Both the position numbers and the translations under genes were made by a program. A stretch of 36,500 nucleotides of DNA, taken from positions 1 to 36,500 of the forward strand of contig DVED01000174.1 of NCBI GenBank assembly GCA_015295945.1, given 5' to 3'. The notes under the pieces were generated by a model, which ran no database searches, was not told where the DNA came from, and was given only the letters and a program-made list of their open reading frames with translations. This stretch comes from Oscillatoriales cyanobacterium M59_W2019_021. Its GTDB lineage: Bacteria; Cyanobacteriota; Cyanobacteriia; Cyanobacteriales; Geitlerinemataceae. Of this stretch, positions 1 to 20,600 are shown piece after piece (the first letter of the stretch is position 1; every line of letters begins with the position of its first letter).

Positions 1-81
1 AATCCCACAAACCTTTTTGACCCACGATTTAGTTCCCATTTAGGACTCTTTAATAATCTCATAAATTGAACTCTATAGCAA

Positions 82-2298: not shown

Positions 2299-2450
2299 TA
2301 GAATCTCCCAATAGGTTTTCGCGAAGAGCGCCCTCTAACATAATCGATCACAATTTGCGCCGATGTTAACATATCAAGCTGAGATTGAAGATCTCGCTCC
2401 ATAGATAACTTGAACGGTGTAGCGAGAAATTTCTCGATCGCCTCAAACAC
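2298..2450 (-). pseudogene. HepT-like (DUF86) toxin N-terminal relic, frameshifted and truncated
   Basis: Seen: a 50-codon minus-strand frame (GTG at 2450, or better ATG at 2402) whose stop overlaps the helicase start in TAATG. From the ATG it reads MERDLQSQLDMLTSAQIVID and then YVRG, which matches my memory of HepT/DUF86 toxin N-termini (M-x-RD, LxDML, AQxVIDYVxG). After YVRG a one-base shift gives RENLLGD, like the next part of the family, but this runs straight into the helicase start. Family knowledge: HepT is an RNase toxin paired with the nucleotidyltransferase MntA. Inference: only the first ~40 of ~110 to 140 residues remain, cut at the edge of the AT-rich insert. No MntA is visible. 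It could instead be a real small upstream ORF coupled to the helicase. Confidence 0.45.
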
Positions 2451-2535
2451 AAATTTTCACCCGACAAAACCCTCAGTTTTTTCCTGTATCCAAGCTTGGA
2501 ACTCCGGACGCACTCCCCCAAGCGCTTACATCTGC

Positions 2536-3612: not shown

Positions 3613-3639
3613 CGAGAAACTCCTCATTTGACAGTGACC

Positions 3640-3742
3640 AATGTTTCCAGGAGTTCAGCAGGGGAAGCAGGGGGAGCAGACAGCGATTTATTACCCATTA
3701 CCAACCCCAAACCCCAAACCCCGAACTCCAAACCCCACATGA
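3640..3742. repeat. Heptamer-like (STRR-type) repeat island between thiE and the beta-helix gene
   Basis: Seen: GCAGGGG-type units (AGCAGGGGAAGCAGGGGGAG) on the thiE side, then TTACCCATTACC and runs of AACCCCAAACCCC, ending in CCCCACATGACC. From thiE's own strand the first block is C-rich and precedes its start; the second is C-rich on the plus strand and precedes the plus-strand gene. The rest of the gap to 4067 shows no gene, only scattered CGATCG sites. Confidence 0.8.
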
Positions 3743-4067
3743 CCGAAAAAATTGATCGGAAACGATAAAAGTGGCAGAAGTTATTCTATCTTGGTATGTT
3801 ATCTGGATTGATGGACGATCGCGCAAAATCCGACAGTGGGTCTGTCGAATTGTGAGTTAGAGGGGTGCGTCCGGATCGATCGTCTTTCTGGATGCGGGTT
3901 GTTGTCGCAGTTGCCCAAGTCGGTTAGAACATGACGATCGCACGTTTGTCGGTGCAAACTCGCTAGGCAGAATTGCATCTGTATCGATTTGCGAATCACA
4001 GCCAATTGCGATCGCCCCGCACGGTTTTTCTCGGAAAAATCATCAGCCGTTTAGACGAACTCCTCAC

Positions 4068-5738: not shown

Positions 5739-5760
5739 CATCCCTTGACACGACAAGTTT

Positions 5761-6399
5761 ATGACTCAAACAATATGGATTGCCCGACACGGCAACCGCA
5801 TCGACTTCGTTCGCCCCGAGTGGTTCGAGACTGCCGAGATGCCTTACGATCCGCACCTGTCCGAAGATGGCGAAATCCAAGCCTGGGAACTGGCACAGCG
5901 ACTCAAAGGCGAACCGATCGATCGCATCTTTTGCTCTCCTTTCTTACGAACCGTGCAAACGGCGAACCACGTTGCCGAGGTTCTCGATTTACCCCTCTAT
6001 TTAGAATGGGGACTGTGCGAGTGGCTCAATCCCGATTGGATGCACGCCATGCCGGAAACGCTGCCGCCGGAAACCTTGAAAGCGCGATTTCCCCGGATCG
6101 ATCTGGGTTATCGCTCTCGGATACAGCCGCAGTATCCGGAAACCGACGAACTGTGCTGGCAGCGCACCGCAGAAACAGCGCGGCGGTTAGTTGCTGATTT
6201 TCCCTCGAATAGTTTGTTCGTGGGTCACGGTGCGTCGGTGGTGGGGGCTGCCATCGGACTTTTAGGCGATTATGTGGAAATTAAAGCCTCGTTGTGCTGC
6301 TTAGTGAAGTTGGTTCGCCGCGAGGATGAATGGGTGATGGAGTTAAATGGCGATACGTCGCATTTAAGTCGATCTCAAACCCGCATTCGATTTAATTAA
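5761..6399 (+). CDS. Histidine phosphatase (phosphoglycerate mutase-like) family protein
   Basis: Seen: ARHGNR near residue 8, the RHG phospho-histidine motif, LSEDGEIQAWELAQRL, an arginine motif in IFCSPFLRTVQTA, and LFVGHGASVVGA, which holds the second catalytic His. Length (212) is normal for the branch-2-like small phosphatases. Family knowledge: these enzymes use a phosphohistidine intermediate, but substrates range widely (sugar phosphates, nucleotides, proteins). No substrate can be inferred here. The gene starts 22 bases after the beta-helix gene, suggesting co-transcription. Confidence 0.88.
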   Translation: MTQTIWIARHGNRIDFVRPEWFETAEMPYDPHLSEDGEIQAWELAQRLKGEPIDRIFCSPFLRTVQTANHVAEVLDLPLYLEWGLCEWLNPDWMHAMPETLPPETLKARFPRIDLGYRSRIQPQYPETDELCWQRTAETARRLVADFPSNSLFVGHGASVVGAAIGLLGDYVEIKASLCCLVKLVRREDEWVMELNGDTSHLSRSQTRIRFN

Positions 6400-6806
6400 G
6401 GTTAATTTTTATCGCGATTGGCTTCAACCATCAGTATTGTGCTAAAACTCTAGACTCAGAAGATTAAGCTGTTATGCATTGAAATTGTGACTTGGGGTGA
6501 CATCCAGAAACGGTGACGCGGTGAGAGATTGACCGTTTTGATACAGAGCGACCGATACCCAGTTTGAGGAGGTTCGCGCCGATCGACCTCGTAGCTCTTT
6601 ATATTTTACCTGTAATCTGCTACGATGGTTAAAATACTATAAAAAAATCCCTCATCGGCTCGATTTTACCCTTCCTCGTCTTCACGAGCGAGACGCGCAA
6701 GAATCATCGACTTGTTGGGGAACGACCTTGGAAGACATCAAATCCTTGCGTCCCTTCAAGGGGCAGATTTTTCAGATCGTTTCGTTACAGGAAGGTTAAG
6801 GCTGTC
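6400..6806. other. Gene-free gap before the receiver gene, with possible hairpin and promoter
   Basis: No coding frame is supported. GAGGTTCG and CGATCGACCTC near 6567-6590 can form a hairpin followed by a T-rich run (TCTTTATATTTT), a possible terminator for the phosphatase gene. TTTACC at 6605-6610 and TAAAAT at 6630-6635 (19-base spacing) form a weak sigma-70-like promoter candidate facing the receiver gene. An AGGAAGG lies about 10 bases before its GTG start. Confidence 0.3.
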
Positions 6807-7274
6807 GTGGAAAAGATAGAAGGGTATTTGAGAAATATCGTACTAAAATCGCCCCAAGTTTTGGCGATCGATCGGGATGAAGATAATTTAGTTCTCGTTT
6901 ATCAAACGTTAGAAATGTTTGGGTATAGTTGTGTCGTTACCCAAGATCGGCAAATAGCTATGAATTTAGCTAAGGTCTATCAACCAAATTTAGTTTTGCT
7001 CGAAATTAGCGCCACCCATCCGGAAGATTTCAAGCTACTTTCTGAGTTCAAAAGCAATCCCAAAACTGCCGAACTCTCGATTATTGCCCTGACAACTTAT
7101 ACCAACTCTCACGAGTGCGATCGCCTGCTAGAACTGGGGTGTAAAGATTACCTTTGCAAGCCCTATCTTCTCGAAGAACTTGGTACTCTCGTCTCTCGTC
7201 ATCTTCCTTTAGATTCGACGAACCTACTCTCCTTGGAAAGATCTTTGAGTAAGACTTCTCAAAGGCTCGCTTAG
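6807..7274 (+). CDS. Single-domain response-regulator receiver protein with Glu replacing the phospho-Asp
   Basis: Seen: a CheY-like fold signature: acidic pocket in VLAIDRDEDNLVLVY, alpha/beta core, LTTYT (Thr switch), and the CKPYLLEEL Lys motif. The normal phospho-acceptor position (LLDI) reads LLEI in PNLVLLEISATHPEDF, and the usual M-P-x-x-D-G loop is lost. Glu is often a phospho-mimic, so the protein may be locked in an active-like state or act as a constitutive interaction module. There is no output domain: ~35 residues precede the receiver and ~20 follow it. GTG start. No histidine kinase is adjacent. A hairpin follows the stop. Confidence 0.85.
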   Translation: MEKIEGYLRNIVLKSPQVLAIDRDEDNLVLVYQTLEMFGYSCVVTQDRQIAMNLAKVYQPNLVLLEISATHPEDFKLLSEFKSNPKTAELSIIALTTYTNSHECDRLLELGCKDYLCKPYLLEELGTLVSRHLPLDSTNLLSLERSLSKTSQRLA

Positions 7275-7283
7275 AAATGCCTA

Positions 7284-7320
7284 GAAGTCAGCAGCCGGCC
7301 ATGCTGTTGGTGCTGACTTC
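7284..7320 (+). terminator. Ten-base perfect hairpin after the receiver gene
   Basis: GAAGTCAGCA (7284-7293) pairs perfectly with TGCTGACTTC (7311-7320) around a 17-base loop, ten bases after the receiver stop. The run after it is only moderately T-rich, so termination is likely but not certain. Confidence 0.5.
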
Positions 7321-7419
7321 CAACTTCTCAGATTATTCTCAGGCTAAGCGATCAAATCGTCGCGCTCGTTTTCACCCCGAAGTTAACGGTAAAGTGGAAA
7401 CGAACTGAAAAACCCGAGT

Positions 7420-7959
7420 TTACGAATTGCCTTGCAAGTGAGCTTCGAGGAACCACAAATACTTATCGATCGTCCGGGAAACTTCAATATAGAGATCGTT
7501 CGTATCCATATCGTGCAATTCTTCCGCGCGATCGGCACCTTCTCTCAATAATTTGGCATAGGCGGCAAAGCGATCAGCTAGTGCCGTAATGTGGTCTTTG
7601 CCATCGATAATATCTAACGGATATTCGGGTAAAATCGATTCTTGGGCTGCCATTCGCGCAGTTCCCAAAGGCGTTCCCCCCAATGCCGTCATCCGTTCGG
7701 CAAGCATATCGATATACTTTTCGAGTTGCGACGCCATTTCATCAAACAGTTCGTGCAACTGGAAAAAATCCATCCCTTTGACCGTCCAGTGAGCTTGCTT
7801 CACTTGGGTTTTTAAGTCTAGGGTCGTGGCTAAGGTTTCGTTGAGAACTTCGGCAACTTGGCGGCGAGTTTCTTCGGCAATATCGATACGAGTATGGTGA
7901 AATCTAATTTTGGGGCAATCGGCGCTGTCGGTTTGCGTATTGGTAACAAAGGCTTGCAT
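7420..7959 (-). CDS. dps: Dps family DNA-binding ferritin-like protein
   Basis: Dps forms a 12-subunit shell that oxidises and stores iron using H2O2 and protects DNA under starvation or oxidative stress. Seen: 179 residues with the ferroxidase signature KQAHWTVKG, FFQLHELFDEMASQLEKYID and DMLAERMTALGG, followed by the typical helical C-terminal half. Start: ATG with GGAGAG upstream (revcomp of 7960-7975). A TATATT element about 20 bases before the start could serve as its -10. It stands alone and convergent to the receiver gene. Confidence 0.94.
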   Translation of the reverse strand: MQAFVTNTQTDSADCPKIRFHHTRIDIAEETRRQVAEVLNETLATTLDLKTQVKQAHWTVKGMDFFQLHELFDEMASQLEKYIDMLAERMTALGGTPLGTARMAAQESILPEYPLDIIDGKDHITALADRFAAYAKLLREGADRAEELHDMDTNDLYIEVSRTIDKYLWFLEAHLQGNS

Positions 7960-7974
7960 AATGGAATCTCTCCT

Positions 7975-8278
7975 TCGGGTCTAATATAAGGTTCTTAATA
8001 CCGCTGAAATGGTTAGCCAGCTCGGAACGATCGAGCATCGTTAGCTTTATAGAAATCAATATGCTCTGCTATGCTGCGATCGGGCAGTCTTCGAGCGGTA
8101 CATCCTTACCATAACTAAACTAACCCAGGTTTGACTTCCCCCGGTCGGTATATAACTTTAGGATGAGATCGGCGATCGATCTGGACTTCTTCCTCCAGTC
8201 GTCCCTCCCCTATTTCCCAACAACTCTAGTGTTTTTATTTGAATCGACAACAGCTATACAATCGAGATTTTTGTAGAT
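7975..8278. other. Divergent gap between dps and tsaC
   Basis: About 300 bases without a gene. On the plus strand TTGACT (8131-8136) lies 16 bases before TAACTT (8153-8158), or 14 before TATAAC, a weak promoter candidate for tsaC. Nothing else is recognised. Confidence 0.3.
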
Positions 8279-8284
8279 TTGGCA

Positions 8285-8893
8285 ATGACTTATGCAACGC
8301 TTTCCGAACTGATTGCGGGCGCGATCTCCGGTCAACTGGTGAGTTTTCCCACCGATACCGTCCCCGCTTTAGCCACTCGACCCGATCGAGCGGCACTCAT
8401 TTATACTGCCAAGCAGCGCGATGTCACCAAACCGTTAATTTTGATGGGGGCAACAGCAGAGGATTTGTGGCAGTACGCGCGCGGGAGCGATGGCGAACGG
8501 GAACTCTGGCAGCGCGTTGCCCGCACTTATTGGCCCGGACCGCTCACCTTAGTCTTACCCGCCAGCGATCGCCTGCCACCGCAAGTCAATCCCACCGATC
8601 CCACCACCATCGGTATCCGCGTCCCCAACAGCGCGATCGCCCGTCGCATTCTCGCGCAAACGTCCCCCCTGGCAACCACCAGCGCCAACCGTTCCGGCGA
8701 ACCCCCATTATCCGACCTATCTCAAATTGCCGTCGAGTTTCCCGAAGCGCTAACTCTCGATCCGGCAGAAGTGACGGAAACACCGGGAGGCGTGCCGTCT
8801 ACGGTGGCAAAATGGACGGGTTGCGGTTGGAACATTTTGCGTCAGGGGGCGATTTCTGAGGAACAGTTACGGGCGATCGAAACCCACCCGTAG
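8285..8893 (+). CDS. tsaC: L-threonylcarbamoyladenylate synthase (TsaC/Sua5/YrdC family)
   Basis: The enzyme makes threonylcarbamoyl-AMP from Thr, bicarbonate and ATP for the t6A37 modification of ANN-decoding tRNAs. Seen: VSFPTDTVPALA, then AKQRDVTKPLILM (the K-x-R and KP nucleotide-binding motif), WPGPLTLVLPA, TIGIRVPNSAIARRIL, LATTSANRSGEPP and GGVPSTVAKW. Length (203) fits the YrdC-only form without the Sua5 C-terminal domain. A TTG two codons upstream (8279) is a possible start, but ATG at 8285 is preferred. Confidence 0.9.
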   Translation: MTYATLSELIAGAISGQLVSFPTDTVPALATRPDRAALIYTAKQRDVTKPLILMGATAEDLWQYARGSDGERELWQRVARTYWPGPLTLVLPASDRLPPQVNPTDPTTIGIRVPNSAIARRILAQTSPLATTSANRSGEPPLSDLSQIAVEFPEALTLDPAEVTETPGGVPSTVAKWTGCGWNILRQGAISEEQLRAIETHP

Positions 8894-8927
8894 AGAACCT
8901 CAGTACGGGATAAGACAGCTTCCGGTG

Positions 8928-9152
8928 GTGGGGAGCAGGGGAGGCAGGGGAAGCAGGGGGAGCTTTCTTGAGCAGGGGAGGCAGGGGGAGCTTTCTTGAG
9001 CAGGGGGAGAGAAACAACTAACCACTAACAACTAACCCTGCGGGTTCACCATTTGCTCCCCAAGACCACAATGGTTCACCACTAACAAACCCCAAACCCC
9101 AAACCCCCAACACCAAATGACCAATGACCTATTACCCATTACCCATTACCGG
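8928..9152. repeat. Large STRR-type repeat island between tsaC and the PPOX gene
   Basis: First half: G-rich GCAGGGG units including a 26-base direct repeat (8953-8978 and 8981-9006), built of GCAGGGGGAG, CTTTCTTGAG and CAGGGG; the same 26-mer recurs inverted at 36188-36213. Second half: AACTAAC units, AACCCCAAACCCC, CCAAATGACCAATGACC and ATTACCCATTACC. So G-rich follows the tsaC stop and C-rich precedes the next start. Confidence 0.88.
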
Positions 9153-9185
9153 AAACTGTCTGATTTCGTATTGACGTTAATATTG

Positions 9186-9773
9186 ATGAATCCAGAGATC
9201 GCACCGTGGAGATCCTTAATTGCCGGAGCGTTACACCGCCACCGCAGCTTACCCCAATCTCGCTATTTGCAACTGGCAACAGTGCGTCCCGACGGGCGTC
9301 CCGCCAACCGAACGGTGGTTTTTCGCGGTTTTCTCGAAGGGAGCGATCGACTGCAAATCGTCACCGACGATCGTAGTGAAAAAGTGGCGCAGATTCGGGA
9401 CAATGCCTGGGGCGAAGTGTGTTGGTACTTTCCTCAAACTCGCGAACAGTTCCGCCTCTCCGGTCAACTGACGGTTGTCGGTGCGGATTGTAACGATGCC
9501 GACCTGCAATTAGCTCGTCGCCAAGCTTGGAGCAAACTGTCAGATTCTGCCCGATCGGGGTTTGCGTGGCCCCCACCCGGTCAACCGAGAGCCGAGGCGG
9601 CTGCATTTAACGTCCCCATTCCCGATGCGAATGTACCGTTACCGCAGTTTTGTTTGTTGCTGTTAGATCCCCAAGAGGTCGATCACCTGCAACTGCGAGG
9701 AGATCCGCAAAATCGGTGGGTTTACCGACGGCAAAGCGATGGTAGTTGGTCGGTTGCGCTTGTCAATCCTTAA
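9186..9773 (+). CDS. FMN-dependent PPOX-type (pyridoxamine 5'-phosphate oxidase-like) flavoprotein
   Basis: Seen: PWRSLIAGALHRHRSLPQSR, then LATVRPDGRPANRTVVFRGF (FMN-binding barrel, as in PNPOx), TDDRSEKVAQI, CWYFPQTREQFRLSG, RRQAWSKLSDSARSGFAWP and a C-terminal LQLRGDPQNRW. This matches the cyanobacterial/plastid Alr4036-like branch of PPOX proteins. Function beyond FMN binding is uncertain; true PLP synthesis is not shown. Start choice: a longer frame opens at 9117, but its first 23 codons are the intergenic repeat (MTNDLLPITHY...), so the ATG at 9186 is the likely start. Confidence 0.86.
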   Translation: MNPEIAPWRSLIAGALHRHRSLPQSRYLQLATVRPDGRPANRTVVFRGFLEGSDRLQIVTDDRSEKVAQIRDNAWGEVCWYFPQTREQFRLSGQLTVVGADCNDADLQLARRQAWSKLSDSARSGFAWPPPGQPRAEAAAFNVPIPDANVPLPQFCLLLLDPQEVDHLQLRGDPQNRWVYRRQSDGSWSVALVNP

Positions 9774-9800
9774 AATAGGCGTTGTCCGATCCGGGTCGAT

Positions 9801-10181
9801 TCAGGATAATTCGTCGGGAGCGGGAATGGGGAAAATATGACCCATCATAAATTGAGAAACCTTGGGATTGCAGGAAGTTTGGGGGTTCGCGTCTCGATCG
9901 GGCGGCAAGAAACACAGGGCAACCCGTCCGATTCCCGGCATGAGAGCGGCAACGCGATCGGCAATAGAATGGGTGTGATTTTTCAGTTGTTGGGTGAGAA
10001 ATTGGTTAGGCGCGATGATAAATAGCGTTTTCACCCCCACGCGATCGGGCATCATGCCAAACGTGCACTCGCGAAAGATCTCGCGCACCGACGGTTCGCA
10101 AGATTCGCAAAAGCGATCAAATAACGAGGCATAAAACTCTTCAGCCAGCGCGCGATCGCTAAAACTCGATTCAGATAACAT
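9801..10181 (-). CDS. Conserved-looking small protein of unknown function, weakly DnaA-domain-I-like
   Basis: Seen: 126 residues with no signal peptide or membrane segment. The stretch LFIIAPNQFLTQQLKNHTHS resembles the aPNxF...W pattern in DnaA N-terminal domains, but no other DnaA region is present, so this is weak. A good Shine-Dalgarno (AAGGACGG) precedes the ATG. Cys residues cluster early (FCESCEPS, FREC), followed by FGMMPDR. I do not recognise a function. It ends 27 bases from the convergent PPOX gene. Confidence 0.6.
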   Translation of the reverse strand: MLSESSFSDRALAEEFYASLFDRFCESCEPSVREIFRECTFGMMPDRVGVKTLFIIAPNQFLTQQLKNHTHSIADRVAALMPGIGRVALCFLPPDRDANPQTSCNPKVSQFMMGHIFPIPAPDELS

Positions 10182-10586
10182 AAGACCGTCCTTAATGATA
10201 ACTTCACAATGGAATTTGGATAACGTGCGGATACTCCCTAAAATCTTTCTACTTCTACTTTGCTGTCCGGTTGCGGATTGTTGTGCGATCGGTGTCGTAG
10301 ACTAACGGTGAAATTTTGAAGTTCCCGCAGCGATCGGCATCCTAAAAAAGAGCGATCGGCATCACATCGTCGCCTACCTGGGATTTGGACGCATCCGTCC
10401 CCGAATTAAACGTATTCAACCAATAGTGTAGAACTCACTCAAGACTCATTTAGCTCTTGGGAAATCTCAAGACTTCCCAAGGCGCACACTACGCCTAATT
10501 ATACCAAATTTATCAATTTGTAAAGCCATCGATCGCCCGTTGAGGGGCGATCGATTACTGACAATCTCCATTCCTTCAACTCGAAC
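10182..10586. other. Gene-free gap with several hairpins
   Basis: About 400 bases with no supported ORF. CTTGGGAA and TTCCCAAG around 10457-10482 form an eight-base hairpin; GGCG/CGCC and CAAATT/AATTTG make smaller ones just after; a strong 11-base hairpin lies at 10528-10555. The cluster of hairpins could belong to a small RNA, but no known family was recognised. Confidence 0.3.
10528..10555. terminator. HIP1-containing 11-base hairpin between convergent/codirectional gene ends
   Basis: ATCGATCGCCC (10528-10538) pairs with GGGCGATCGAT (10545-10555) around a six-base loop, 32 bases past the stop of the minus-strand M16 gene. No long T run follows on either strand, so terminator function is inferred from position and stem strength. 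Confidence 0.45.
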
Positions 10587-12080
10587 TTAACTATTTGGGG
10601 AGGTGGGAATGGTGACATCGATCGAGGTTACCGGAATGCGAGGATTGAGAGTTGCCAACGGTGGCTGAATGGCTCCCGTATTCCCCACCACCAGCGTCAC
10701 CAGATTTTCCGGTTTGAGATATTGCTGCGCCACGCGCTGCACGTCGGCGATCGTCGTCGATTCTACCCCGCGTTGGTACTCGAAAATAAAATCTTCCGGA
10801 TAGGCGTAATAATCGTACGTCAGCAAGCGGGAGAGGGTCTGCGCCGGATCGGCAAAATTAAAGACAAAGGAGTTAATTTCCGATTCTTGAGCGTATTGCA
10901 ATTCTTCTGGCGTAATCGGTTCGTTGCGGATGCGTTCGATCTCTCCTTTAATCGCTTGAATAAAGGGAACGGTTGCATCCGATCGCGTTTGTCCGCCAGC
11001 GATGAAAATACCGGGATAATCGTAACGAGCACTCCACGCCGCATAGACGGAATAAGCCAATCCCTGGCGCGATCGCACTTCGTTAAACAGTCGCCCGCCA
11101 AACCCGTTGAGAACTCCATTCATCACCCCCAGAGCCGGGTAATCCTCGCTATTGCGCTGTCCGCCCAAATGACCGATCAGCACGGAACTTTGAGTGAGTT
11201 GGGGTTGGTCGATCGCAAAAATTCCCCCTTGATGTTGCTGAGAAACAGGCGGCAAGTTCAGAGGCAGCAATTTGGGATTGTTCTGCCAATCGCCCAATTC
11301 TCGTTTGATGAGAGTCCGCATTTGAGCGGGTTCAAAATCGCCGACAATGCCTAAAATAACGTTATTAGGATGAAAATATCGCTTGTGAAAGTTTGCCAAA
11401 TCTTGGCGATCGATATTGTTCAAATCGGCGTATTCTACCACTCGAGCGTAGGGACTGGTTTCGCCGTAAATCAGTTTTTTAAATTCTCGCAAAGCGATGT
11501 CGTTGGGATCGTCGTTGCGACGGGCAATCCCTCCCGCCATCTGGGTTTTAGCGACTTCCAGTTTATCGGCTGCGAAGATCGGCTCCCGCAACACCTCAGC
11601 AAATAAGCCAAATACTTCCTCTAAATCTTCGCTGAGGGCACTGAAACTTGCCGAACCCGATGCCGTACCGATCGAGGTTTCGACGTATGCCGCCCGTTGT
11701 TCGAGCATTTGGTTGAGTTGGTCTGCCGTGTGGCTGCGCGTGCCGCCCGAACGCATCACGTCTCCGGTTAAACTCGCCAGGCCGACTTGGTTGCCAGGTT
11801 CCCAACGACTCCCCGTACGAATCAATGCCGTGCCACTGACGAGAGGTAATTCCCGATCCTGCATTAAATATACGACCATCCCGTTGTCCAACTGAAAACG
11901 GGTGTAGTCCGGGAGTTGAATATCGGGTACGGGAGGAAATTCTAACTCTGTATAGTGTTTGGGGATATCAGTGGGTGCGAATTGCGCGATCGCCCCCCGT
12001 AGCATCCCGAACACCAAAAAGACGATAACCAGCAGAGCCACTCCAATCTGGGACTTGCGAATTCCGAATGATCGATTCAT
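10587..12080 (-). CDS. M16 (insulinase-like) peptidase homologue lacking the HxxEH zinc motif
   Basis: Seen: an N-terminal membrane anchor or signal (VALLVIVFLVFGMLRGAIA), then the two-halved M16 fold: LDNGMVVYLMQDRELPLVS, HKRYFHPNNVILGIVGDF and, in the second half, GFGGRLFNEVRSRQGLAYSVYA with the Arg/Tyr pair. Where active members have HFLEH, this has GLASLTGDVMRSGG, so both His and the Glu are gone. Family knowledge: paired bacterial M16B enzymes have one zinc-bearing subunit and one R/Y subunit. Inference: this is the non-catalytic partner, exported or membrane-anchored; the active partner is not in this window. Confidence 0.88.
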   Translation of the reverse strand: MNRSFGIRKSQIGVALLVIVFLVFGMLRGAIAQFAPTDIPKHYTELEFPPVPDIQLPDYTRFQLDNGMVVYLMQDRELPLVSGTALIRTGSRWEPGNQVGLASLTGDVMRSGGTRSHTADQLNQMLEQRAAYVETSIGTASGSASFSALSEDLEEVFGLFAEVLREPIFAADKLEVAKTQMAGGIARRNDDPNDIALREFKKLIYGETSPYARVVEYADLNNIDRQDLANFHKRYFHPNNVILGIVGDFEPAQMRTLIKRELGDWQNNPKLLPLNLPPVSQQHQGGIFAIDQPQLTQSSVLIGHLGGQRNSEDYPALGVMNGVLNGFGGRLFNEVRSRQGLAYSVYAAWSARYDYPGIFIAGGQTRSDATVPFIQAIKGEIERIRNEPITPEELQYAQESEINSFVFNFADPAQTLSRLLTYDYYAYPEDFIFEYQRGVESTTIADVQRVAQQYLKPENLVTLVVGNTGAIQPPLATLNPRIPVTSIDVTIPTSPNS

Positions 12081-12175
12081 GAGGGAAGCTAATGGGGAAA
12101 ATGCTGCAAGCGGCGCGGCGCTGCATTACAACTCTATCGCAACTATTGTACCAGCTTGGATTGAAGCCAAAACTC

Positions 12176-12217
12176 AAACCGGAAGTTCCCCTTCAATCGT
12201 GGGAGAACTTCCGGTTT
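12176..12217. terminator. Twelve-base perfect inverted repeat between the STAS and M16 genes
   Basis: AAACCGGAAGTT (12176-12187) pairs with AACTTCCGGTTT (12206-12217); the loop sides CCC/GGG can add pairs. It lies after the STAS stop (minus strand) and before the M16 start. A terminator or mRNA-stability hairpin is likely. The remaining 12081-12442 sequence shows no gene. Confidence 0.5.
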
Positions 12218-12442
12218 AGACATCGGGTTTCTGCTAAGAAACCGTGGTTAATCGAGATGGTGTCTTTCAAGACTGGGAAAAGACACTCTAAATCAAAATC
12301 ACCGACATCAATAACTTTTCCTGATGCCGTAATGGGGTTGGACGAGGCGTCGAGCGACGACTGTTTCAATTTCAATAATAATGGGAGATCGAGTGGGTCT
12401 AGGCTTTCCTCTCAGACGAGGATAGAGAAATCCCCTCAAGGG

Positions 12443-12772
12443 TTACGCAACTTCAAAGGAAGTCGAACTGTCAAAAATCTCAAATACGCGATCGAGTTGA
12501 GTCAACTCAAAGATGATGCGGATCGAGGGAGAAACAGAACACAGGCTGAATCTACGACCGATTTGCTGGGACAAGCTGAGCGCCGAGACAAAAGCCATCA
12601 GTCCAGCACTATCTAGCGATTCAACTTCCTTCATGTCGATCAAGACGGCAGATGTCTCGGAGTTGGAAACGGCTGTCGTTAACTGGTTTCTAAGCACGGT
12701 AGCATTAGCCGCGTTCAGATGACCCTCTAACTTCATGACAGTTGCTTTCGGTAGATTCATAACAGCCTGCAT
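12443..12772 (-). CDS. STAS-domain anti-sigma factor antagonist
   Basis: Seen: 109 residues forming a complete STAS domain: KLEGHLNAANATVLRNQL, VLIDMKEVESLDSAGLMAFV with the phosphorylatable Ser in LDSAG, LCSVSPSIRIIFELTQLDRVF. Family knowledge: such proteins are phosphorylated by RsbW-like kinases and dephosphorylated by PP2C phosphatases in partner-switching regulation. No partner kinase or phosphatase lies nearby. Start: ATG with AAGGA upstream; a second in-frame Met is at residue 5. Confidence 0.9.
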   Translation of the reverse strand: MQAVMNLPKATVMKLEGHLNAANATVLRNQLTTAVSNSETSAVLIDMKEVESLDSAGLMAFVSALSLSQQIGRRFSLCSVSPSIRIIFELTQLDRVFEIFDSSTSFEVA

Positions 12773-13163
12773 AATTCAATTCCTTTTGACTTGGCTACTG
12801 GAACATGAAAATTGATGACACAAACATAGACGATTTTTGCCAAATCTGACTACCCATTAGGGTAGAATTTTGCCGAATCTTCGCGTTTGTCATCGATTCT
12901 GTAAAGTTTTCAGCAAGACTGGGTTAAAAATGCAGTCCAAGATACCAACATTTTCGGGATACAGCCATCAGCCGACCGCTATTGCCAATCCGATCGAACG
13001 ATCGATCGGAAGCAGGGGGAGACGGAGACACGAAGAAACGGAGAGCGTGAATGCGAAAGCGCAAAAGCGTATCAGTCCAACCCCAAACCCCTAATCGCAC
13101 CAATATTTGGTAAGTTGAGTTGAGTAACGCATCTGGCGGCGAGAACGCTGGGAAAATACGTCG
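12773..13163. other. Divergent gap with partial repeat island
   Basis: No gene is supported. 13010-13050 carries GAAGCAGGGGGAGACGGAGACACG, a relative of the GCAGGGG and TCCGTGTC units (opposite strand), and 13075-13092 carries AACCCCAAACCCC just before the SNF2 gene. The part near the STAS gene is AT-rich and may hold its promoter. Confidence 0.4.
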
Positions 13164-16100
13164 ATGGCAATCTTACACGGAAGTTGGCAACTCGAAGATC
13201 GAGGTGGGGAGTTGTTCGTTTGGGGGGAAACGTGGCGCCGCCTCGACGCCGTGCCTTCGTCCGATGGAATTATTCTATCGTCGGACGATCGCCTGTGCCT
13301 GCATCCTTTGGCAATGAGTGCCGCGCAAGTGATGGCATTGCTGCGAGATAAATTGGGACTCGCATCCCAGCGCAGTTGGAGATCGATCGAGAAAACGGCA
13401 ATTCTACCAACGATGTTCCTGGAAACGGGGGAACGGGTTCCGCAACATTCCGCCGCCGAACCGGAGGGAGAGTTAATCCCGTATCCGTGGCAAGTGGAGG
13501 GGATTTGCCTGTCGGCGGGGGACGCTTTGGAGGTGCTGCAAGCGCTGCCGTTGGGGACGATGGATGCGGCAGAATCGTTTGTGGGTGCGGATTTGCGGTT
13601 TTGGTCGCACGTGGCACGGTGGACGTTGGATTTACTGGTTCGCAGTAAGTTTTTGCCGGGATTGGAGCATTGGGACGGGGGTTCGGTGGTGGCAGTGTGG
13701 CAACCCTTACTCGATAGTGCCACCGATCGCGATCGCCTGACGCGCTTTGCCAAACAAATGCCGTCTGCTAGTCGCAGCTATACGGACACGGACGTCTTTC
13801 TCGAGTTCCTGGGATCGCAAGGGGAAGTGGAGGACGTGGCGGAGTCGATCCTGGATTTCCCGTTTCCTTCTGCGCGATCGTTGTTGCGCGACTTTTTGCA
13901 GCGGACGATCGACGCTCAGGTGCGATCGATTATTGGCAAAGAAGCGCTGCCGAAGGTCTCCGCACCCGCAAGTCAATGGCTCAAAGCACTGAGCTCCGAG
14001 TCGGGAACCCTCAAGCCCTCGAAAGATCTCGCGGTGCTAGAAACGGCGATCGAAACGTGGCAAGCTCCCGTGCGATCGCACCTTTCCGGTGAAGCGCAAT
14101 TTCGCACGGCATTCGTATTGGAACCTCCGGCAAATGGCAATGGGGAATGGTTGCTGAAATTTTGCTTGCAAGATGCCGACCAACCAGACTTTTTGGTAGA
14201 CGCGCGCACCATTTGGAACCATCCGGTCGATCGTCTGGTCTATCGAGGTCGGGCGATCGAACATCCCCAAGAAACCCTACTCGGCGGGTTGGGACTGGCA
14301 TCGCGCCTCTATCCGGCGATCGAACCCTCGCTACAAACTCAGCGTCCCCAACGGTGTCCCCTCGATCCCATTCAAGTCTACCAATTCCTCAAAGGGGTTT
14401 CGTGGCGCTTCCAAGATAGCGGTCTCGGCGTCATTTTACCCCCCGGTTTAGCCAACTACGACAGCGCCACCGGACGCTTGGGATTGAGCATCCAGGCGGC
14501 ATCCCCTGCCCAAGGCGGCATCGGACTGCAAAGTTTGCTCGCTTTTAAGTGGGAACTCAGCCTCGGGGGGCGCCGCATTTCCCAGGCGGAGTTTCGCCAA
14601 CTCATCACCCAAGGCAGTCCCTTAGTGGAAATTAACGGGGAATGGGTGGAATTGCGTCCGGCGGACGTGAGAGCGGCGGAAGCGTTCTTCGCCAGTCGCC
14701 AAGACCAGATGACGCTATCGCTGGAAGATGCGCTGCGCCTGAGTGCGGGGGAAACCCAAACCATCGATAAGTTACCCGTGGTCAATTTCGAGGCAACGGG
14801 AGCGTTGAAAGAATTGATGGATACGCTGACGGGGAATAAATCGTTAGAGGCGATCGAAACTCCCAAGACGTTTCGCGGTGAATTGCGTCCGTATCAGGCG
14901 CGAGGCGTAGGTTGGTTGGCATTTCTGGAACGCTGGGGTTTAGGCGCGTGTTTGGCGGACGATATGGGGTTGGGAAAAACCATCGAGTTGATTGCGTTTT
15001 TGCTCCACCTACAAGAGGAAGAAAAGCTGGTCGATCCGGTGTTGTTGGTGTGTCCCACTTCGGTTCTGGGAAACTGGGAACGGGAGGTGAAAAAATTCGG
15101 TTCTACGCTGAAAACCCTCGTCCATCACGGGGACAAGCGATCGAAAGGAAAAGCCTTAGTTAAAGCAGTTCGCGATCGCCATTTAGTCATCACCAGCTAT
15201 TCTTTAGTCTATCGCGATTTAAAAGATTTCAAACTCGTCCAATGGCAAGGTATCGTCTTAGATGAAGCGCAAAATATCAAAAATCCCACGGCAAAACAAT
15301 CCCAAGCCGTGCGCGAAGTCGAAGCCAATTTCCGCATTGCTTTAACGGGAACTCCCGTGGAAAATCGCTTGTCAGAATTGTGGTCAATTTTAGATTTCCT
15401 CAATCCCGGTTATTTGGGAACTCAAGCCTTTTTCAAACGGCGGTTTGCCCTGCCGATCGAAAAATACGGCGATACCACCTCCCTACAAACCTTGCGATCG
15501 CTCGTCCAACCCTTCATCCTGCGCCGCTTAAAGACCGATAAAGACATCATTCAAGATTTGCCCGAAAAGCAGGAAATGACCGTTTTCTGCCCGCTATCGG
15601 CTCGGCAAGCGCTTCTATATCAACAAATTGTCGAGGGTTCCCTCGAGGCGATCGAATCGGCAGACGGCATTCAACGACGGGGACAAATTTTGGCGCTGCT
15701 GGTGAAGCTCAAACAATTGTGCAATCATCCCGAACTCTTAGAGGCAAAGACTGCTAAATCTAAATCCATCGAATTCGAGAAATTCGCGCAACAATCTGGA
15801 AAATTGCAACGCTTAGAAGAAATGCTCGAAGAACTCCTTGCAGAAGGCGATCGCGCTCTCATTTTCACCCAATTTGCTGAATGGGGAAAACAACTGCAAC
15901 CCTATTTAGAAAAAACCTTAAATCGGGAAGTTTTATTCCTTTACGGCAGCACCCGCAAAGAGAAACGAGAAGAAATGGTCGATCGCTTCCAACACGATCC
16001 CCAAGGTCCGCCGATTATGATTTTATCCATTAAAGCCGGAGGTGTAGGGTTAAATTTAACCCGAGCCAATCACGTTTTTCACTTTGATCGCTGGTGGAAT

Positions 16101-16352
16101 CCCGCCGTGGAAAACCAAGCTACCGATCGCGCTTTTAGAATCGGTCAAAAGCGTAACGTTCAAGTTCACAAATTCGTTTGTACCGGAACCTTAGAAGAAA
16201 AAATTCACGATTTAATTGAAAGTAAAAAAGCGCTTGCCGAACAGGTGGTGGGTGCGGGAGAAGATTGGCTGACCGAACTCGATACCAGCCAACTGCGAAA
16301 TCTACTCCTGCTCGATCGAACTGCCGTGATTGAAGAAGATCGATCGATCTAA
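13164..16352 (+). CDS. SNF2/RapA-type DEAD/DEAH ATPase (HepA-like helicase)
   Basis: Seen: ~560 N-terminal residues typical of the bacterial SNF2-associated region, then RPYQARGVGWLAFLERWGLG, Walker A DDMGLGKT (about 598-606), LLVCPTSVLGNWEREV, the DEAQNIKNP box (about 700), LTGTPVENRLSELWSIL, ALIFTQFAEWGKQLQPYL, and the C-terminal SNF2 motifs VGLNLTRANHVFHFDRWWNP and ATDRAFRIGQ. All motifs are intact. Family knowledge: these ATPases translocate on duplex DNA; the bacterial members' roles are poorly defined (transcription recycling, DNA repair). The gene stands alone and is convergent with argB. Confidence 0.93.
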   Translation: MAILHGSWQLEDRGGELFVWGETWRRLDAVPSSDGIILSSDDRLCLHPLAMSAAQVMALLRDKLGLASQRSWRSIEKTAILPTMFLETGERVPQHSAAEPEGELIPYPWQVEGICLSAGDALEVLQALPLGTMDAAESFVGADLRFWSHVARWTLDLLVRSKFLPGLEHWDGGSVVAVWQPLLDSATDRDRLTRFAKQMPSASRSYTDTDVFLEFLGSQGEVEDVAESILDFPFPSARSLLRDFLQRTIDAQVRSIIGKEALPKVSAPASQWLKALSSESGTLKPSKDLAVLETAIETWQAPVRSHLSGEAQFRTAFVLEPPANGNGEWLLKFCLQDADQPDFLVDARTIWNHPVDRLVYRGRAIEHPQETLLGGLGLASRLYPAIEPSLQTQRPQRCPLDPIQVYQFLKGVSWRFQDSGLGVILPPGLANYDSATGRLGLSIQAASPAQGGIGLQSLLAFKWELSLGGRRISQAEFRQLITQGSPLVEINGEWVELRPADVRAAEAFFASRQDQMTLSLEDALRLSAGETQTIDKLPVVNFEATGALKELMDTLTGNKSLEAIETPKTFRGELRPYQARGVGWLAFLERWGLGACLADDMGLGKTIELIAFLLHLQEEEKLVDPVLLVCPTSVLGNWEREVKKFGSTLKTLVHHGDKRSKGKALVKAVRDRHLVITSYSLVYRDLKDFKLVQWQGIVLDEAQNIKNPTAKQSQAVREVEANFRIALTGTPVENRLSELWSILDFLNPGYLGTQAFFKRRFALPIEKYGDTTSLQTLRSLVQPFILRRLKTDKDIIQDLPEKQEMTVFCPLSARQALLYQQIVEGSLEAIESADGIQRRGQILALLVKLKQLCNHPELLEAKTAKSKSIEFEKFAQQSGKLQRLEEMLEELLAEGDRALIFTQFAEWGKQLQPYLEKTLNREVLFLYGSTRKEKREEMVDRFQHDPQGPPIMILSIKAGGVGLNLTRANHVFHFDRWWNPAVENQATDRAFRIGQKRNVQVHKFVCTGTLEEKIHDLIESKKALAEQVVGAGEDWLTELDTSQLRNLLLLDRTAVIEEDRSI

Positions 16353-16388
16353 AACTTTACGTCCTTTGTGTCTTCGCGATCTAAACCC

Positions 16389-17276
16389 TTAAAACCGCGA
16401 GCCGACAATCATCGAACCGATACCGGAATCGGTAAACACTTCTAACAATAAAGCGTGAGGAATGCGACCGTCGATGATATGCGCGGCTTTGACCCCCTGT
16501 GCGAGCGATCGCACGCAGCACGTCACTTTTGGAATCATTCCCCCCGCCACAATTCCCTCTTCAATTAACTCCCGCGCACCCTGAATATCCACCTTGGGAA
16601 TTAACGTCGAAGGATCTTTATAATCTCGCAAAATCCCTGCCGTATCCGTCAGCAGAATTAACTTCTCGGCACCGAGTGCGGCGGCAATTTCCCCAGCAAC
16701 CGTATCGGCATTGATATTGTACGCCTGACCGCTTTCGTCGGCAGCCACGCTAGAAATCACGGGAACGTAACCGCTATCGAGAAGTGCCTCCACCACGCGC
16801 GTATCCACCGAGGTGACATCACCGACGAAGCCGATGCCTTCTTGACCTTGGGGACGCGCGCCGATTAAGTTGCCATCCTTTCCGCATAGGCCCACAGCCG
16901 CACCACCAGCTTGGTTGATCAGCGTCACGATTTCCTTATTCACCCGACCGACCAGCACCATTTCTACCACGTCCATGGTCGGCGCATCGGTCACGCGCAA
17001 CCCATCTTTAAATTGGGGAGCAATGCCAAGTTTTCCCAACCAAGTATTGATTTCGGGACCGCCACCGTGAACGACGACGGGTCGCACGCCAACGCAGGAG
17101 AGAAAGACGATATCGCGGATAACTTTATCTTTGAGGGTTGATTCTTTCATCGCCGCACCGCCGTATTTGACGACGATGGTCCGTCCGGCAAACTGTTGGA
17201 TGTAGGGGAGTGCTTCGCTGAGGACTCGGACTCGCGTGGCGTCGGCTTCCCGTAAATACTCGTGTTCGTTGAGCAT
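16389..17276 (-). CDS. argB: N-acetylglutamate kinase
   Basis: ArgB phosphorylates N-acetylglutamate, the controlled step of arginine synthesis, and in cyanobacteria is relieved of arginine inhibition by PII. Seen: 295 residues with [11 protein letters not shown] (phosphate-binding), [58 protein letters not shown] and GGMIPKV. The N-terminal helix (residues 1-25, [19 protein letters not shown]) is the arginine-sensitive hexamer type. Upstream of its start lies GGCGATTACCCATTACCCC (minus strand), a repeat remnant. Confidence 0.97.
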
Positions 17277-17458
17277 GGATGGTGTGTTAACGATCCCGAT
17301 AGTGGCAAGTTCTTTGCCAGGATATCAGAATCTAGAGGGCGATCGGTATCGACCGTCACGATCGGGCGATCGGATCTTGAAAATTAATTAGGGGTAATGG
17401 GTAATCGCCTTAAATCTCAATTCTCTGTCGAGCCGGATTCCCTGCATTTCCTAGCCTT

Positions 17459-17515
17459 AGGGTGGGCAGCCTTCAACGGCTTCTCCGAGTACAGCGGGAA
17501 AATGCTGCCCACCCT
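17459..17515. repeat. GGGTGGGCA-type interspersed inverted repeat
   Basis: AGGGTGGGCAGC (17459-17470) and GCTGCCCACCCT (17504-17515) form a perfect 12-base inverted repeat with a 33-base interior, 42 bases past the hisD stop. I recall similar GGGTGGGCA...TGCCCACCC elements scattered in cyanobacterial genomes; it may act as terminator of hisD or be a small MITE-like element. Confidence 0.7.
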
Positions 17516-17556
17516 ACAAGTCTCTATCCAATTCCCAAACGACTGATGACTCTGCC

Positions 17557-18873
17557 TCATTCTTCCTTCTGCTTCTTCTCCGCTTCCAACCGCAACCGCA
17601 CCGACTCGGCGTGAGAGTGCAACCCTTCCGCTTGTGCCAACGCCTGAATCGCGCCGCCCATTTTTTTCAGTGCCGTTGCCGAATATTCGATCAAACTCGA
17701 GTGCTTCATAAACGTTTCTACCCCCAACGCCGAAGCATACCGCGCCGTGCCGGACGTGGGCAGGGTATGATTGGGACCGGCGAGGTAGTCTCCCACCGCT
17801 TCTGGGGTGGAACTGCCGAGGAAAATCGCTCCGGCGTGGCGAATTTGGGGAACCAAATCCCACGGTTCTTCGACTTCCAATTCCAAGTGTTCCGGCGCAA
17901 AAATGTTGGAGAGTTCGGCAGCTTCTTCGAGGGACTCGACGATGACGATCACTCCGTAATGGGCGATCGCCTTTTCGGTTAGCAAGCGGCGGGGATGGTC
18001 TGCCAGTTGGCGATCGACTTCTGCCACCACTTGCCGCGCCAGTGCCGAATCCGGGGTGAGCAAAATCGACGATGCCATGGGATCGTGTTCTGCTTGCGCC
18101 AGCAAATCCGCCGCCAGATACACTGGATTCGCCGTACTATCGGCAATCACCAACACTTCCGACGGACCCGCCAGGGAGTCGATCCCCACCGTGCCGTAGA
18201 CTAATTTTTTCGCCAAGGTGACGTAAATATTGCCCGGTCCGGTGATAACATCCACTTTGGGAATCGTTTCGGTTCCGTAGGCTAAAGCGGCGATCGCCTG
18301 AGCGCCTCCCACGCGATAGATTTCTTGGATTCCCGCTTCCTGCGCCGCCACCAAAACCACGGGATTGAGGGTTTTATCCGTCCCCGGCGGCGTCACCATG
18401 GCAATGCTCGGCACGCCTGCCACCTTCGCCGGAATTGCGTTCATCAACACCGTACTGGGATACGCCGCGCGACCGCCGGGAATGTAGATCCCCGCCCGAT
18501 CGACCGGATTGTATCGCTTGCCCAACACGATCTCGTCTTCGCCGAAATTCACCCAACTCTTCGGCACGCGCTGCCGATGGAATGCCTCGATTTGCTGGGC
18601 TGCCAGCCGAATTGCCCCCAGCAACTCCGGAGAGACGTGCTGGTATGCCATATCGAGTTCGATATCGCTCACCCTCAACTTGTCGGACGTCAGGGCTTGA
18701 CCGTCGAACTCGCGGGTGTAGTGCAGCAAAGCACGATCGCCCTCCCGCTTGACGGCTGTTAGTACCTCCCGCACCGTTGCCTCTTTTTCCGCTACGCGAT
18801 CGTCGTGGGTGCGATCGCAAATCCGACGCAGTTCAGCTTCTGCCTCAGTCCGCTGAGTGAGAATTCGCAGCAT
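17557..18873 (-). CDS. hisD: Histidinol dehydrogenase
   Basis: HisD performs the last two oxidations of histidine synthesis (histidinol to histidine, NAD, Zn). Seen: 438 residues with ALLHYTREFDG, YNPVDRAGIYIPGGRAAYPS, MNAIPAKVAGV, GGAQAIAALAYGTE, KVDVITGPGNIYV, DSLAGPSEVLVIAD, LLAQAEHDP (zinc His), FAPEHLEL and GPNHTLPTSGTARY. All are family hallmarks. It is unlinked to other his genes, as usual in cyanobacteria. Divergent from rpsT. Confidence 0.97.
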   Translation of the reverse strand: MLRILTQRTEAEAELRRICDRTHDDRVAEKEATVREVLTAVKREGDRALLHYTREFDGQALTSDKLRVSDIELDMAYQHVSPELLGAIRLAAQQIEAFHRQRVPKSWVNFGEDEIVLGKRYNPVDRAGIYIPGGRAAYPSTVLMNAIPAKVAGVPSIAMVTPPGTDKTLNPVVLVAAQEAGIQEIYRVGGAQAIAALAYGTETIPKVDVITGPGNIYVTLAKKLVYGTVGIDSLAGPSEVLVIADSTANPVYLAADLLAQAEHDPMASSILLTPDSALARQVVAEVDRQLADHPRRLLTEKAIAHYGVIVIVESLEEAAELSNIFAPEHLELEVEEPWDLVPQIRHAGAIFLGSSTPEAVGDYLAGPNHTLPTSGTARYASALGVETFMKHSSLIEYSATALKKMGGAIQALAQAEGLHSHAESVRLRLEAEKKQKEE

Positions 18874-18968
18874 GGAGTCCGAATGCCTATCTAGGTAACT
18901 GGGTTAATGGTTCCGAGTGACTAAGACGGATGCGCTTGAGTGCGAGTCTCCGCCTGTTTATAGCTTAA

Positions 18969-18984
18969 CGCGAATTTTTTCGCG
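18969..18984. other. Six-base hairpin with T4 loop upstream of the rpsT leader
   Basis: CGCGAA (18969-18974), TTTT loop, TTCGCG (18979-18984). It lies between hisD and the rpsT leader; role unknown, possibly insulating divergent transcription. Confidence 0.35.
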
Positions 18985-19011
18985 ACGCGCCTTTGTCCGG
19001 GGTCGAGATGT

Positions 19012-19179
19012 TATATTAGTTCTTCGGAAGCCTGAAGTTGAGTGAAAACTCACGGGGTTAGGAACTAGCCTCGTCAGACGCCGAGTAACAACCGCTACCT
19101 ATAGCTTGGGCTATCAGGCAAGTTGGTGCGATGAAGCGTCCCAAACCCAATGTTTGACAAAGTAATGTTGGGTAGTTCA
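19012..19179 (+). mobile_element. Structured RNA-like segment upstream of rpsT resembling an IS200/IS605 right end
   Basis: Seen: a row of small hairpins: cUUCGg-type TTC-TTCG-GAA (19021-19030), TGAGT-GAAA-ACTCA (19040-19053), GGTTAG-GAA-CTAGCC (19057-19071), ATAGC-TTGG-GCTAT (19102-19115), and ACCCAA/TTGGGT (19146-19174) followed by AGTTCA. From memory, GATGAAGC...CCCA, a terminal hairpin and GGGTAGTTCA are typical of the 3' ends of cyanobacterial IS200/IS605 (TnpB) elements, the part that yields the TnpB guide (omega) RNA. No tnpB or tnpA is present. A TATATT at 19012-19017 could be a -10 driving it. Alternative: a cis-acting rpsT leader. Confidence 0.45.
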
Positions 19180-19230
19180 TGCCTAAAAATGATTCAATCT
19201 TAACGTTCGTCGCAAACAGAGGAATTTCGA

Positions 19231-19530
19231 GTGGCTAATATCAAATCTGCTATCAAGCGCGTGCAAATCGCCGAGCGCAACCGACTGCGAAACAAAGCCT
19301 ACAAGTCCGCCGTGAAAACGCTGATGAAGAACTACCTTCAAGCCGTCAGCGAATACGGAACCAATCCCACCCCCGAGAAGCTGGCGGAAGTCCAGCAACG
19401 GCAAGCGGCAGCCTACAGCAAAATCGACAAAGCCGTCAAACGCGGCGTTCTCCACGCCAACAACGGCGCCCGAAAAAAATCTCGCTTAGCCAGAGCGCTA
19501 AAACAGTACGAAACTCCGGTAGCCTCCTAG
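19231..19530 (+). CDS. rpsT: Small ribosomal subunit protein S20
   Basis: S20 binds 16S rRNA early in 30S assembly. Seen: [60 protein letters not shown], the full S20 pattern at 99 residues. GTG start with AGAGGA upstream fixes the start. In many cyanobacteria rpsT-tatD precede rpoB; here rpsT-tatD persist but rpoB does not follow. Confidence 0.96.
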
Positions 19531-19634
19531 GAGCAGGGGGAGCCGGGGAGGCAGGGGGAGAAAAGCAACTAACAACTAACCCCAAATGACCAACCCCAAA
19601 CCCCAAACCCCGAACACCCAAGACCCAGTGACCC
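19531..19634. repeat. STRR-type repeat island between rpsT and tatD
   Basis: Starts right at the rpsT stop with GAGCAGGGGGAGCCGGGGAG (G-rich), passes through AACTAACAACTAACCCC and ends with AACCCCAAACCCC and CAGTGACCCATGACC. The final ATGACCAACCCC supplies the tatD start codon. Confidence 0.85.
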
Positions 19635-20429
19635 ATGACCAACCCCATACAACTGATCGATACGCACGTTCACATTAACTTCGACGTGTTCCAAGGGGAA
19701 TTGGACGAGTTACGATCGCGCTGGCGAGAAGCTGGGGTCGCTCAACTCGTCCACGCCTGCGTTAAGCCGTCGGATTTCGACTCGATTCGGGCGATCGCTG
19801 ATCGGTTTGAGGAAATGTCCTTTGCCGTGGGGTTGCATCCCCTGGAAGCCGACAACTGGACGCCCCAGATGGGTGAGGAAATCCTAACTTTGGCAAAGTC
19901 AGACGCGCGGGTGGTGGCGATCGGGGAAATGGGGTTAGATTTCTTCAAAGCGGAAAATACTGATATCCAAAAGCAGGCATTTCTCACGCAACTGGAAATC
20001 GCCCACCAACTCAACTTACCCGTCATCATCCACTGCCGGGAGGCGGCAGAAACGATGGTTCCCCTGCTGCGGGAGTTTTGGGAACGGCACGGTGCGGTGC
20101 GCGGGGTGATGCACTGTTGGACGGGAACCCCGGAGGAAACCCAATGGTTTCTCGATCTGGGGTTTTACGTCAGCTTTAGCGGCGTGGTGACCTTTAAAAA
20201 GGCAACCGCCGTACAAGAGTCAGCGAAACGAGTTCCGGACGATCGCCTCCTCGTCGAAACCGACTGCCCGTTTTTAGCCCCGGTTCCCAAACGCGGCAAG
20301 CGCAACGAACCCGCCTACGTCCGCCACGTCGCCGAAGAAGTGGCAAAACTGCGAGGTATTCCTTTAGAAACCCTCGCCGCGCAAACCACCGAAAACGCCC
20401 GATCGTTATTTGCTTTGAAGAGTCATTAG
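19635..20429 (+). CDS. tatD: TatD family metal-dependent hydrolase (DNase)
   Basis: Seen: [11 protein letters not shown] (first metal His pair), [88 protein letters not shown] and [14 protein letters not shown]. All metal ligands (HxH, E, H, H, D) are visible. Family knowledge: TatD proteins are Mg-dependent 3'-5' exonucleases or deoxyribonucleases. The first residues MTNP are encoded by the intergenic repeat; no other start codon is available before LIDTHVH. Confidence 0.93.
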
Positions 20430-20600
20430 TCATTCGTCATAGGTCATTTGGGGTTTGGGGTTTGGGGTTTGGGAGTTTGTTATTAGTTCTTGGGGAGTGG
20501 CTAGTGGCTAGTTGCATTCACGGTCTCCGTGTCCCCGTGTCTCCGTGTCTCCGTGTCTCCGTGTCTCCCTTCCCCCGCTCCCCCCGCTCCCCCTGCTCGA
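20430..20600. repeat. STRR-type repeat island with a five-copy 8-base tandem repeat
   Basis: After the tatD stop: AGTCATTAGTCATTCGTCAT, then GGGGTTTGGGGTTTGGGG. At 20526-20565 there are five copies of TCCGTGTC (one with CCCGTGTC), followed by CCCCCGCTCCCCCTGCTC before ispG. The rest to 20765 shows no gene; a CAGG near 20755 is a weak ribosome site for ispG. Confidence 0.88.

Follow-up and report, generated by a model that had tools for sequence, protein, structure and literature searches.

The leader of rpsT in Oscillatoriales cyanobacterium M59_W2019_021 carries an insert of about 147 nt (positions 19034±4 to 19180, plus strand, of the 36,500-nt stretch of DNA analysed here, hereafter the window, which constitutes the whole of contig C179). 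We assign a probability of roughly 0.8 to the reading that the insert is the solitary right end, or omegaRNA, of an IS200/IS605 element that entered the leader and subsequently lost its left end together with its genes. The left edge of the insert follows from leader lengths and the right edge from the conserved TAGTTCAT end. The relevant features, all on the plus strand, are these.

19007 to 19018 (+): −10 region GATGTTATATTA of the native rpsT promoter, with TATATT at 19012-19017; host sequence, outside the element.
19033 to 19037 (+): TGAAG, a weak candidate for a left-flank remnant, matching TGAAC in 4/5 letters at the presumed boundary.
19034 to 19180 (+): inserted element, solo IS200/IS605 right end/omegaRNA, ~147 nt, left edge ±~4 nt.
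19040 to 19051 (+): 5′ hairpin GAGT-GAAA-ACTC of 4 bp, from predicted folds.
19052 to 19074 (+): omegaRNA stem-loop 1, GGGGTTAG-GAA-CTAGCCTC with flanking pairs, from the fold and the covariance models.
19077 to 19140 (+): branched stem GACGC/GCGTC with inner helices; compensatory changes in every helix across relatives.
19130 to 19149 (+): GATGAAGCGTCCCAAACCCA block.
19145 to 19173 (+): terminal right-end hairpin, from the fold and the covariance models.
19173 to 19180 (+): right-end tip TAGTTCAT, identical in most of the relatives displayed.
19181 to 19200 (+): putative guide position, the 20 nt of rpsT leader that follow the right end immediately, by analogy with the ISDra2 reRNA.
19231 to 19530 (+): rpsT (ribosomal protein S20), GTG start, PF01649 match.

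The small hairpins, the GATGAAGCGTCCCAAACCCA block and the final hairpin running into TAGTTCAT, on which the original prediction was founded, are present where it had placed them, and the folding energy of the segment lies at z −2.4 to −2.8 relative to dinucleotide shuffles, varying with the ends chosen. The predicted spacing of 50 nt from the tip to the GTG of rpsT at 19231 is exact. In the branched stem of the window copy, one model pair lacks its partner through a deletion. Own-genome searches with PF07282, PF01797 and a linked TnpB returned neither tnpA nor tnpB on the window's contig, in agreement with the earlier claim that no transposase or TnpB gene lies nearby. The ORF upstream of the segment is on the minus strand with its start at 18873 and is, judged by eye, presumably hisD-like. 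Downstream of rpsT, short CCCCAAAC-type and CTCCGTGTC-type repeats (19540-19650 and 20440-20600) flank an ORF at 19635-20429 that we take, also by eye, to be TatD-like.

Rfam offered no identity for the RNA: there was no match at gathering score in the window, a snoRNA match of E 4.4 was all that appeared up to E 5 in 18600-19700, and six relative loci scanned (two of them the same place) gave no match for the RNA itself. When the own genome and 58 relatives were searched with the plain DNA sequence, matches came from the own genome and 5 of the relatives, at six places besides that of the window segment itself. Three of these were retained (L002, L006, L007), comprising two clear copies in genome G036 and one in G051; the other three (L003, L004, L005) were dropped as copies, being matches of 27-41 nt inside other open frames. 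The window segment and the two G036 copies share one structure, in which 10 of 40 predicted pairs are maintained through two-sided changes. A covariance model (R1) was built from these three sequences; of 195 genomes searched with it, 78 gave matches, the own genome among them. Among 30 loci returned by the R1 search, 20 showed similarity to own-genome TnpBs, and at most of these 20 the tnpB frame enters the RNA from upstream on the same strand.

For a further covariance model (R2), 40 of the 57 loci with 'full' tnpB were used, the window and the solo copies of G036 being left out; these sequences were aligned by means of R1, of which the window is a part, so that the R2 structure leans towards that of R1. 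Across the full 36.5 kb of the window, R2 has a single match up to E 10, at 19050-19180 with 103 bits and E 9.8e-24. The covariance search thus bears out the original prediction of a solitary IS200/IS605 right-end or omega-RNA-like structure in the rpsT leader, though it does so by a model of our own and not by an Rfam family. Within the 40 R2 loci, 33 of 39 pairs exhibit changes on both sides and 95.7% of cells pair, compared with 34-43% for slid structures used as control; no shuffle among 500 attained the observed scores. The window copy, placed in the R2 alignment of 37 matches, has both letters standard in all 38 pairs for which both are present, the 39th being unpaired because one partner was lost by deletion. 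The pairing rate averages 95.7% over the 40 linked loci and 92.7% over the 37 matches, nearly all of which are without tnpB. Because a model from which the window was withheld matches it, and because the tnpB-linked loci show two-sided pair changes, the window segment is, on sequence grounds, the right end/omegaRNA of a cyanobacterial IS200/IS605 TnpB family.

Copies near tnpB, whose absence would have counted against the original prediction, do exist. In 57 of 128 loci examined, the RNA lies 3′ of TnpB similarity that reaches the first 60 TnpB residues, which is what we mean by 'full', with no implication that the gene is intact. Class labels derive from tblastn with five linked TnpBs; 'solo' denotes loci in which TnpB similarity is absent >150 nt upstream of the RNA (the intron-separated L053 and L112 are included), and ten copies close to the end of the fetched stretch were classed apart as 'edge'. 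Two linked TnpBs were scanned, and both match PF01385 (OrfB_IS605) and PF07282 (Cas12f1-like TNB), with the helix-turn-helix Pfam model at or below cut-off; the ORF adjoining one of them matches PF01797 (Y1_Tnp). Among 124 non-redundant loci, a frame is open through the RNA stretch in 55 of the 56 full copies, and the left-end motif GCGGCAGTCCC is found upstream, with at most one mismatch, in 26. It is preceded at 5-7 nt by TGAAC in 20 of those 26 loci and by TTAAC in four, and by neither in two.

Solo copies make up 37 of the 124 non-redundant sites, window included, a proportion that applies to a non-random choice of loci (the best matches of one search, all matches of an exact 19-nt pattern, and hand-picked regions). 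Their frame is closed in 26 of 37, a count that spans 90 nt upstream, not necessarily tnpB, and so was not taken as evidence of decay. Multi-copy omegaRNAs without tnpB occur in two genomes, G064 (L078, L079, L080, L082, L083, L084; 15 regions of this genome were fetched and L081 was set aside because its right-end tip was not found) and G091 (L105, L107-L110, L183, L184, L186-L188). The left-end motif lies upstream in 6/6 of these G064 copies and 7/10 of these G091 copies, and their right flanks differ, hence their guides too. Four further solo omegaRNAs in three Nostocaceae/Calothrix MAGs (L116, L162, L119, L166) share, by eye, a near-identical upstream stretch of 80 nt without tnpB and are possibly another tnpB-less family. 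At other places group II introns (Rfam RF00029) end directly 5′ of the omegaRNA (L053:459-535 in G055; L112:301-377 and L006:1572-1648, which are one and the same place in G051), with a short stretch resembling a tnpB tail between intron and omegaRNA; this suggests that the introns entered tnpB close to the codons for its zinc ribbon. The idea of an additional 5′ hairpin peculiar to solo copies was considered and not kept, as the classes separated weakly and a helix often forms at this place in copies with tnpB codons as well. The numbers reaching p≤0.05 against mononucleotide shuffles were 15/40 solo (rows made non-independent by the G064 and G091 families), 11/57 full, 5/21 partial and 2/7 edge; the window copy, at p = 0.07, was not among them. 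In some other solo copies, hairpins of unrelated sequence occupy the same 5′ place.

The insertion itself is read from the rpsT leaders of relatives. The gene was found in 56 of 59 genomes, the own one among them, and the comparison covered 30 of these loci. The motif GATGTTATATTA or a near variant stands upstream of rpsT in all eight same-family genomes fetched (out of 12 with an rpsT match) and in 19 of the 29 non-own loci, where it precedes the start codon by 39-66 nt; the pattern for this motif was settled once the sequences had been seen. From motif to start codon the distance is 212 nt in the window as opposed to 64-66 nt in the eight same-family relatives, and the extra 146-148 nt equal the RNA plus its 5′ hairpin. 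A leader alignment put the gap at a place that is implausible, and leader lengths were used to set the boundary. The −10 suggested earlier for the left edge of the segment does exist (TATATT 19012-19017), but since the motif recurs upstream of relatives' rpsT, it belongs to the host promoter and not to the element. With this native promoter lying upstream of the insert, the element would be transcribed as rpsT leader; most likely, it is carried along passively as the first part of the rpsT mRNA.

These same loci bear on the idea that the segment is an ancient leader RNA native to rpsT that merely resembles an omegaRNA. Its position in the leader and its good fold would suit that idea, but the R1 search found the segment in 0 of the 29 other rpsT loci, the own locus being the sole carrier among 30, and the segment is matched by a model derived from tnpB-linked loci. 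The comparison of leader lengths together with the absence from 29/29 other loci led us to reject it, with a residual probability close to nil. Somewhat better placed is the proposal that the insertion has become an element of the rpsT leader which affects translation or mRNA stability. The element sits between promoter and ribosome-binding site with its fold kept, and the predicted fold of 19012-19230, a single prediction made on the window sequence, would pair 19018-19025 with 19219-19226, where the likely ribosome-binding site lies. Against this stand the short leaders of the same family and the confinement of the segment to one rpsT locus of the 30, and we regard such a regulatory role as distinctly unlikely.

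Within the element, the frame that usually encodes the TnpB tail gives a tail-like reading with two stops and without a tnpB body; another frame is open through the RNA, and its start (GLGTSL) resembles the L072-group tails, from which it then departs. In the 3.1 kb around the window copy, the left-end motif GCGGCAGTCCC is at chance level, with 3 matches of at most two mismatches, as many as in 28 of 200 shuffles, and 0/3 of them located within 19012-19230. TGAAG at 19033-19037 is possibly what is left of the flank motif TGAAC.

The search for a partner TnpB was made in a draft genome of 212 contigs, in which repeated elements can be missed. PF07282 matches six places in it, five over cut-off; a linked TnpB used as query (that of L050) likewise finds six places, 19-33% identical, three of them with internal stops; and Y1 transposases are present at three places. 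With R1, no copy besides that in the window appears up to E 10. A single distant copy is detected by R2, on contig C160 (L042:1796-1941, 39.2 bits, ending TAGTTCAC), which adjoins a decayed tnpB with three internal stops and is the sole relative of the window RNA to turn up in this genome; at three of its tnpB loci (L038, L040, L041), R2 has no match. The check for elements with the same end thus turned up a distant copy beside a decayed tnpB but no close one, and from the lack of a close source copy it follows that the window copy is old or that its source was lost. No cognate TnpB for the window RNA was found in the draft, and the genome is likely, not certainly, without one. The 20 nt after the right end are unique in the own genome when up to 3 mismatches are allowed.

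The earlier suggestion that a stranded guide could be used by a TnpB encoded elsewhere is weakened by the absence of a cognate TnpB from the draft genome. In its full form, the suggestion is of a working stand-alone omegaRNA: a TnpB acting in trans would process the rpsT mRNA, and the guide, consisting of rpsT leader sequence, would direct it to the rpsT site without the insert, by which the insertion would be maintained. The 38 of 38 standard pairs, a guide position unique in the genome, and the recurrence of tnpB-less copies, some of them multi-copy with left end and omegaRNA (G064, G091), are in accord with it. No cognate was found among the own-genome TnpBs, at 19-33% identity to a linked one, the only related omegaRNA found there (39.2 bits) lies by a tnpB interrupted three times, the left end was not detected, and the flank motif matches in just 4/5 letters; we consider this scenario unlikely. 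Very unlikely, in our estimate, is the particular arrangement in which the rpsT mRNA also serves as precursor of the guide RNA of a mobile element, with a solo omegaRNA that is driven by the rpsT promoter and has the gene's own leader as its guide. If it were true, any compatible TnpB that reached the cell would cleave the rpsT site lacking the insert, thereby protecting the insertion, and would process the rpsT mRNA as well.

The solo right-end/omegaRNA remnant is therefore retained as the best explanation. Its ancestor would have been a cyanobacterial IS200/IS605 element in which the last tnpB codons overlap the structured omegaRNA, and its landing site the short rpsT leader, with the promoter on one side and the ribosome-binding site on the other. 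Left end and genes would then have been lost, leaving the ~147 nt of right end/omegaRNA, which the native rpsT promoter presumably transcribes with rpsT leader sequence in guide position. Since no partner was found, RNA-guided activity at the present day is not expected. Three observations sit less comfortably with a relic: 38/38 intact pairs are not required of one in long decay (a recent insertion would keep them too), a close source copy is absent from the own genome, and one reading frame is open through the window RNA.

Our study suggests that TnpB guide RNAs can persist after their nuclease gene is gone and come to lie, with the fold nearly intact, behind the promoter of a core host gene. 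The omegaRNA family concerned is widespread in cyanobacteria, and its RNA had no Rfam match either in the window or at the six relative loci scanned. The family's many tnpB-less copies, some of them multi-copy, offer a way to study whether TnpB employs guides supplied in trans. A literature search by title and abstract beginnings found no TnpB guide RNA in a ribosomal-protein leader, a result that speaks for the titles and beginnings covered and is not proof of absence from print.

Regarding known systems, stand-alone omegaRNA loci used in trans have been reported for IscB. The window copy resembles them in being an omegaRNA without a nuclease gene and differs in that no partner nuclease was found in the genome and in that its relatives link the RNA to TnpB, not to IscB. 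ISDra2 has a reRNA of ~150 nt that matches the end of tnpB and the right end, its last ~16 nt coming from the flank as guide (PMC8612924). The window segment is alike as a candidate RNA of about that length from tnpB 3′ end/right end and, by analogy, in its succession of right end TAGTTCAT and flank, here rpsT leader, in guide position; it is unlike in having neither tnpB nor tnpA, in its broken tail frame, and in a probable transcription from the promoter of a host ribosomal-protein gene. Elements reduced to their ends are also on record. The palindrome-associated transposable elements (PATEs) of Haloquadratum are ends-only IS605 derivatives (PMC3119063), and a PATE-like copy in Halanaerobium consists of 28 nt of left end and 58 nt of tnpB end plus right end (PMC7290912). 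The window copy compares with PATEs as a core-deleted IS605 remnant, at ~147 nt too short for a transposase, and is set apart by being single-copy and without a recognisable left-end palindrome, the right-end hairpin being present. The window copy belongs to a known kind, that of stranded IS605 ends; what is unusual is to find it behind the promoter of a ribosomal-protein gene with its fold almost intact, and its occurrence in one genome is compatible with a recent passenger as well as with retained function.
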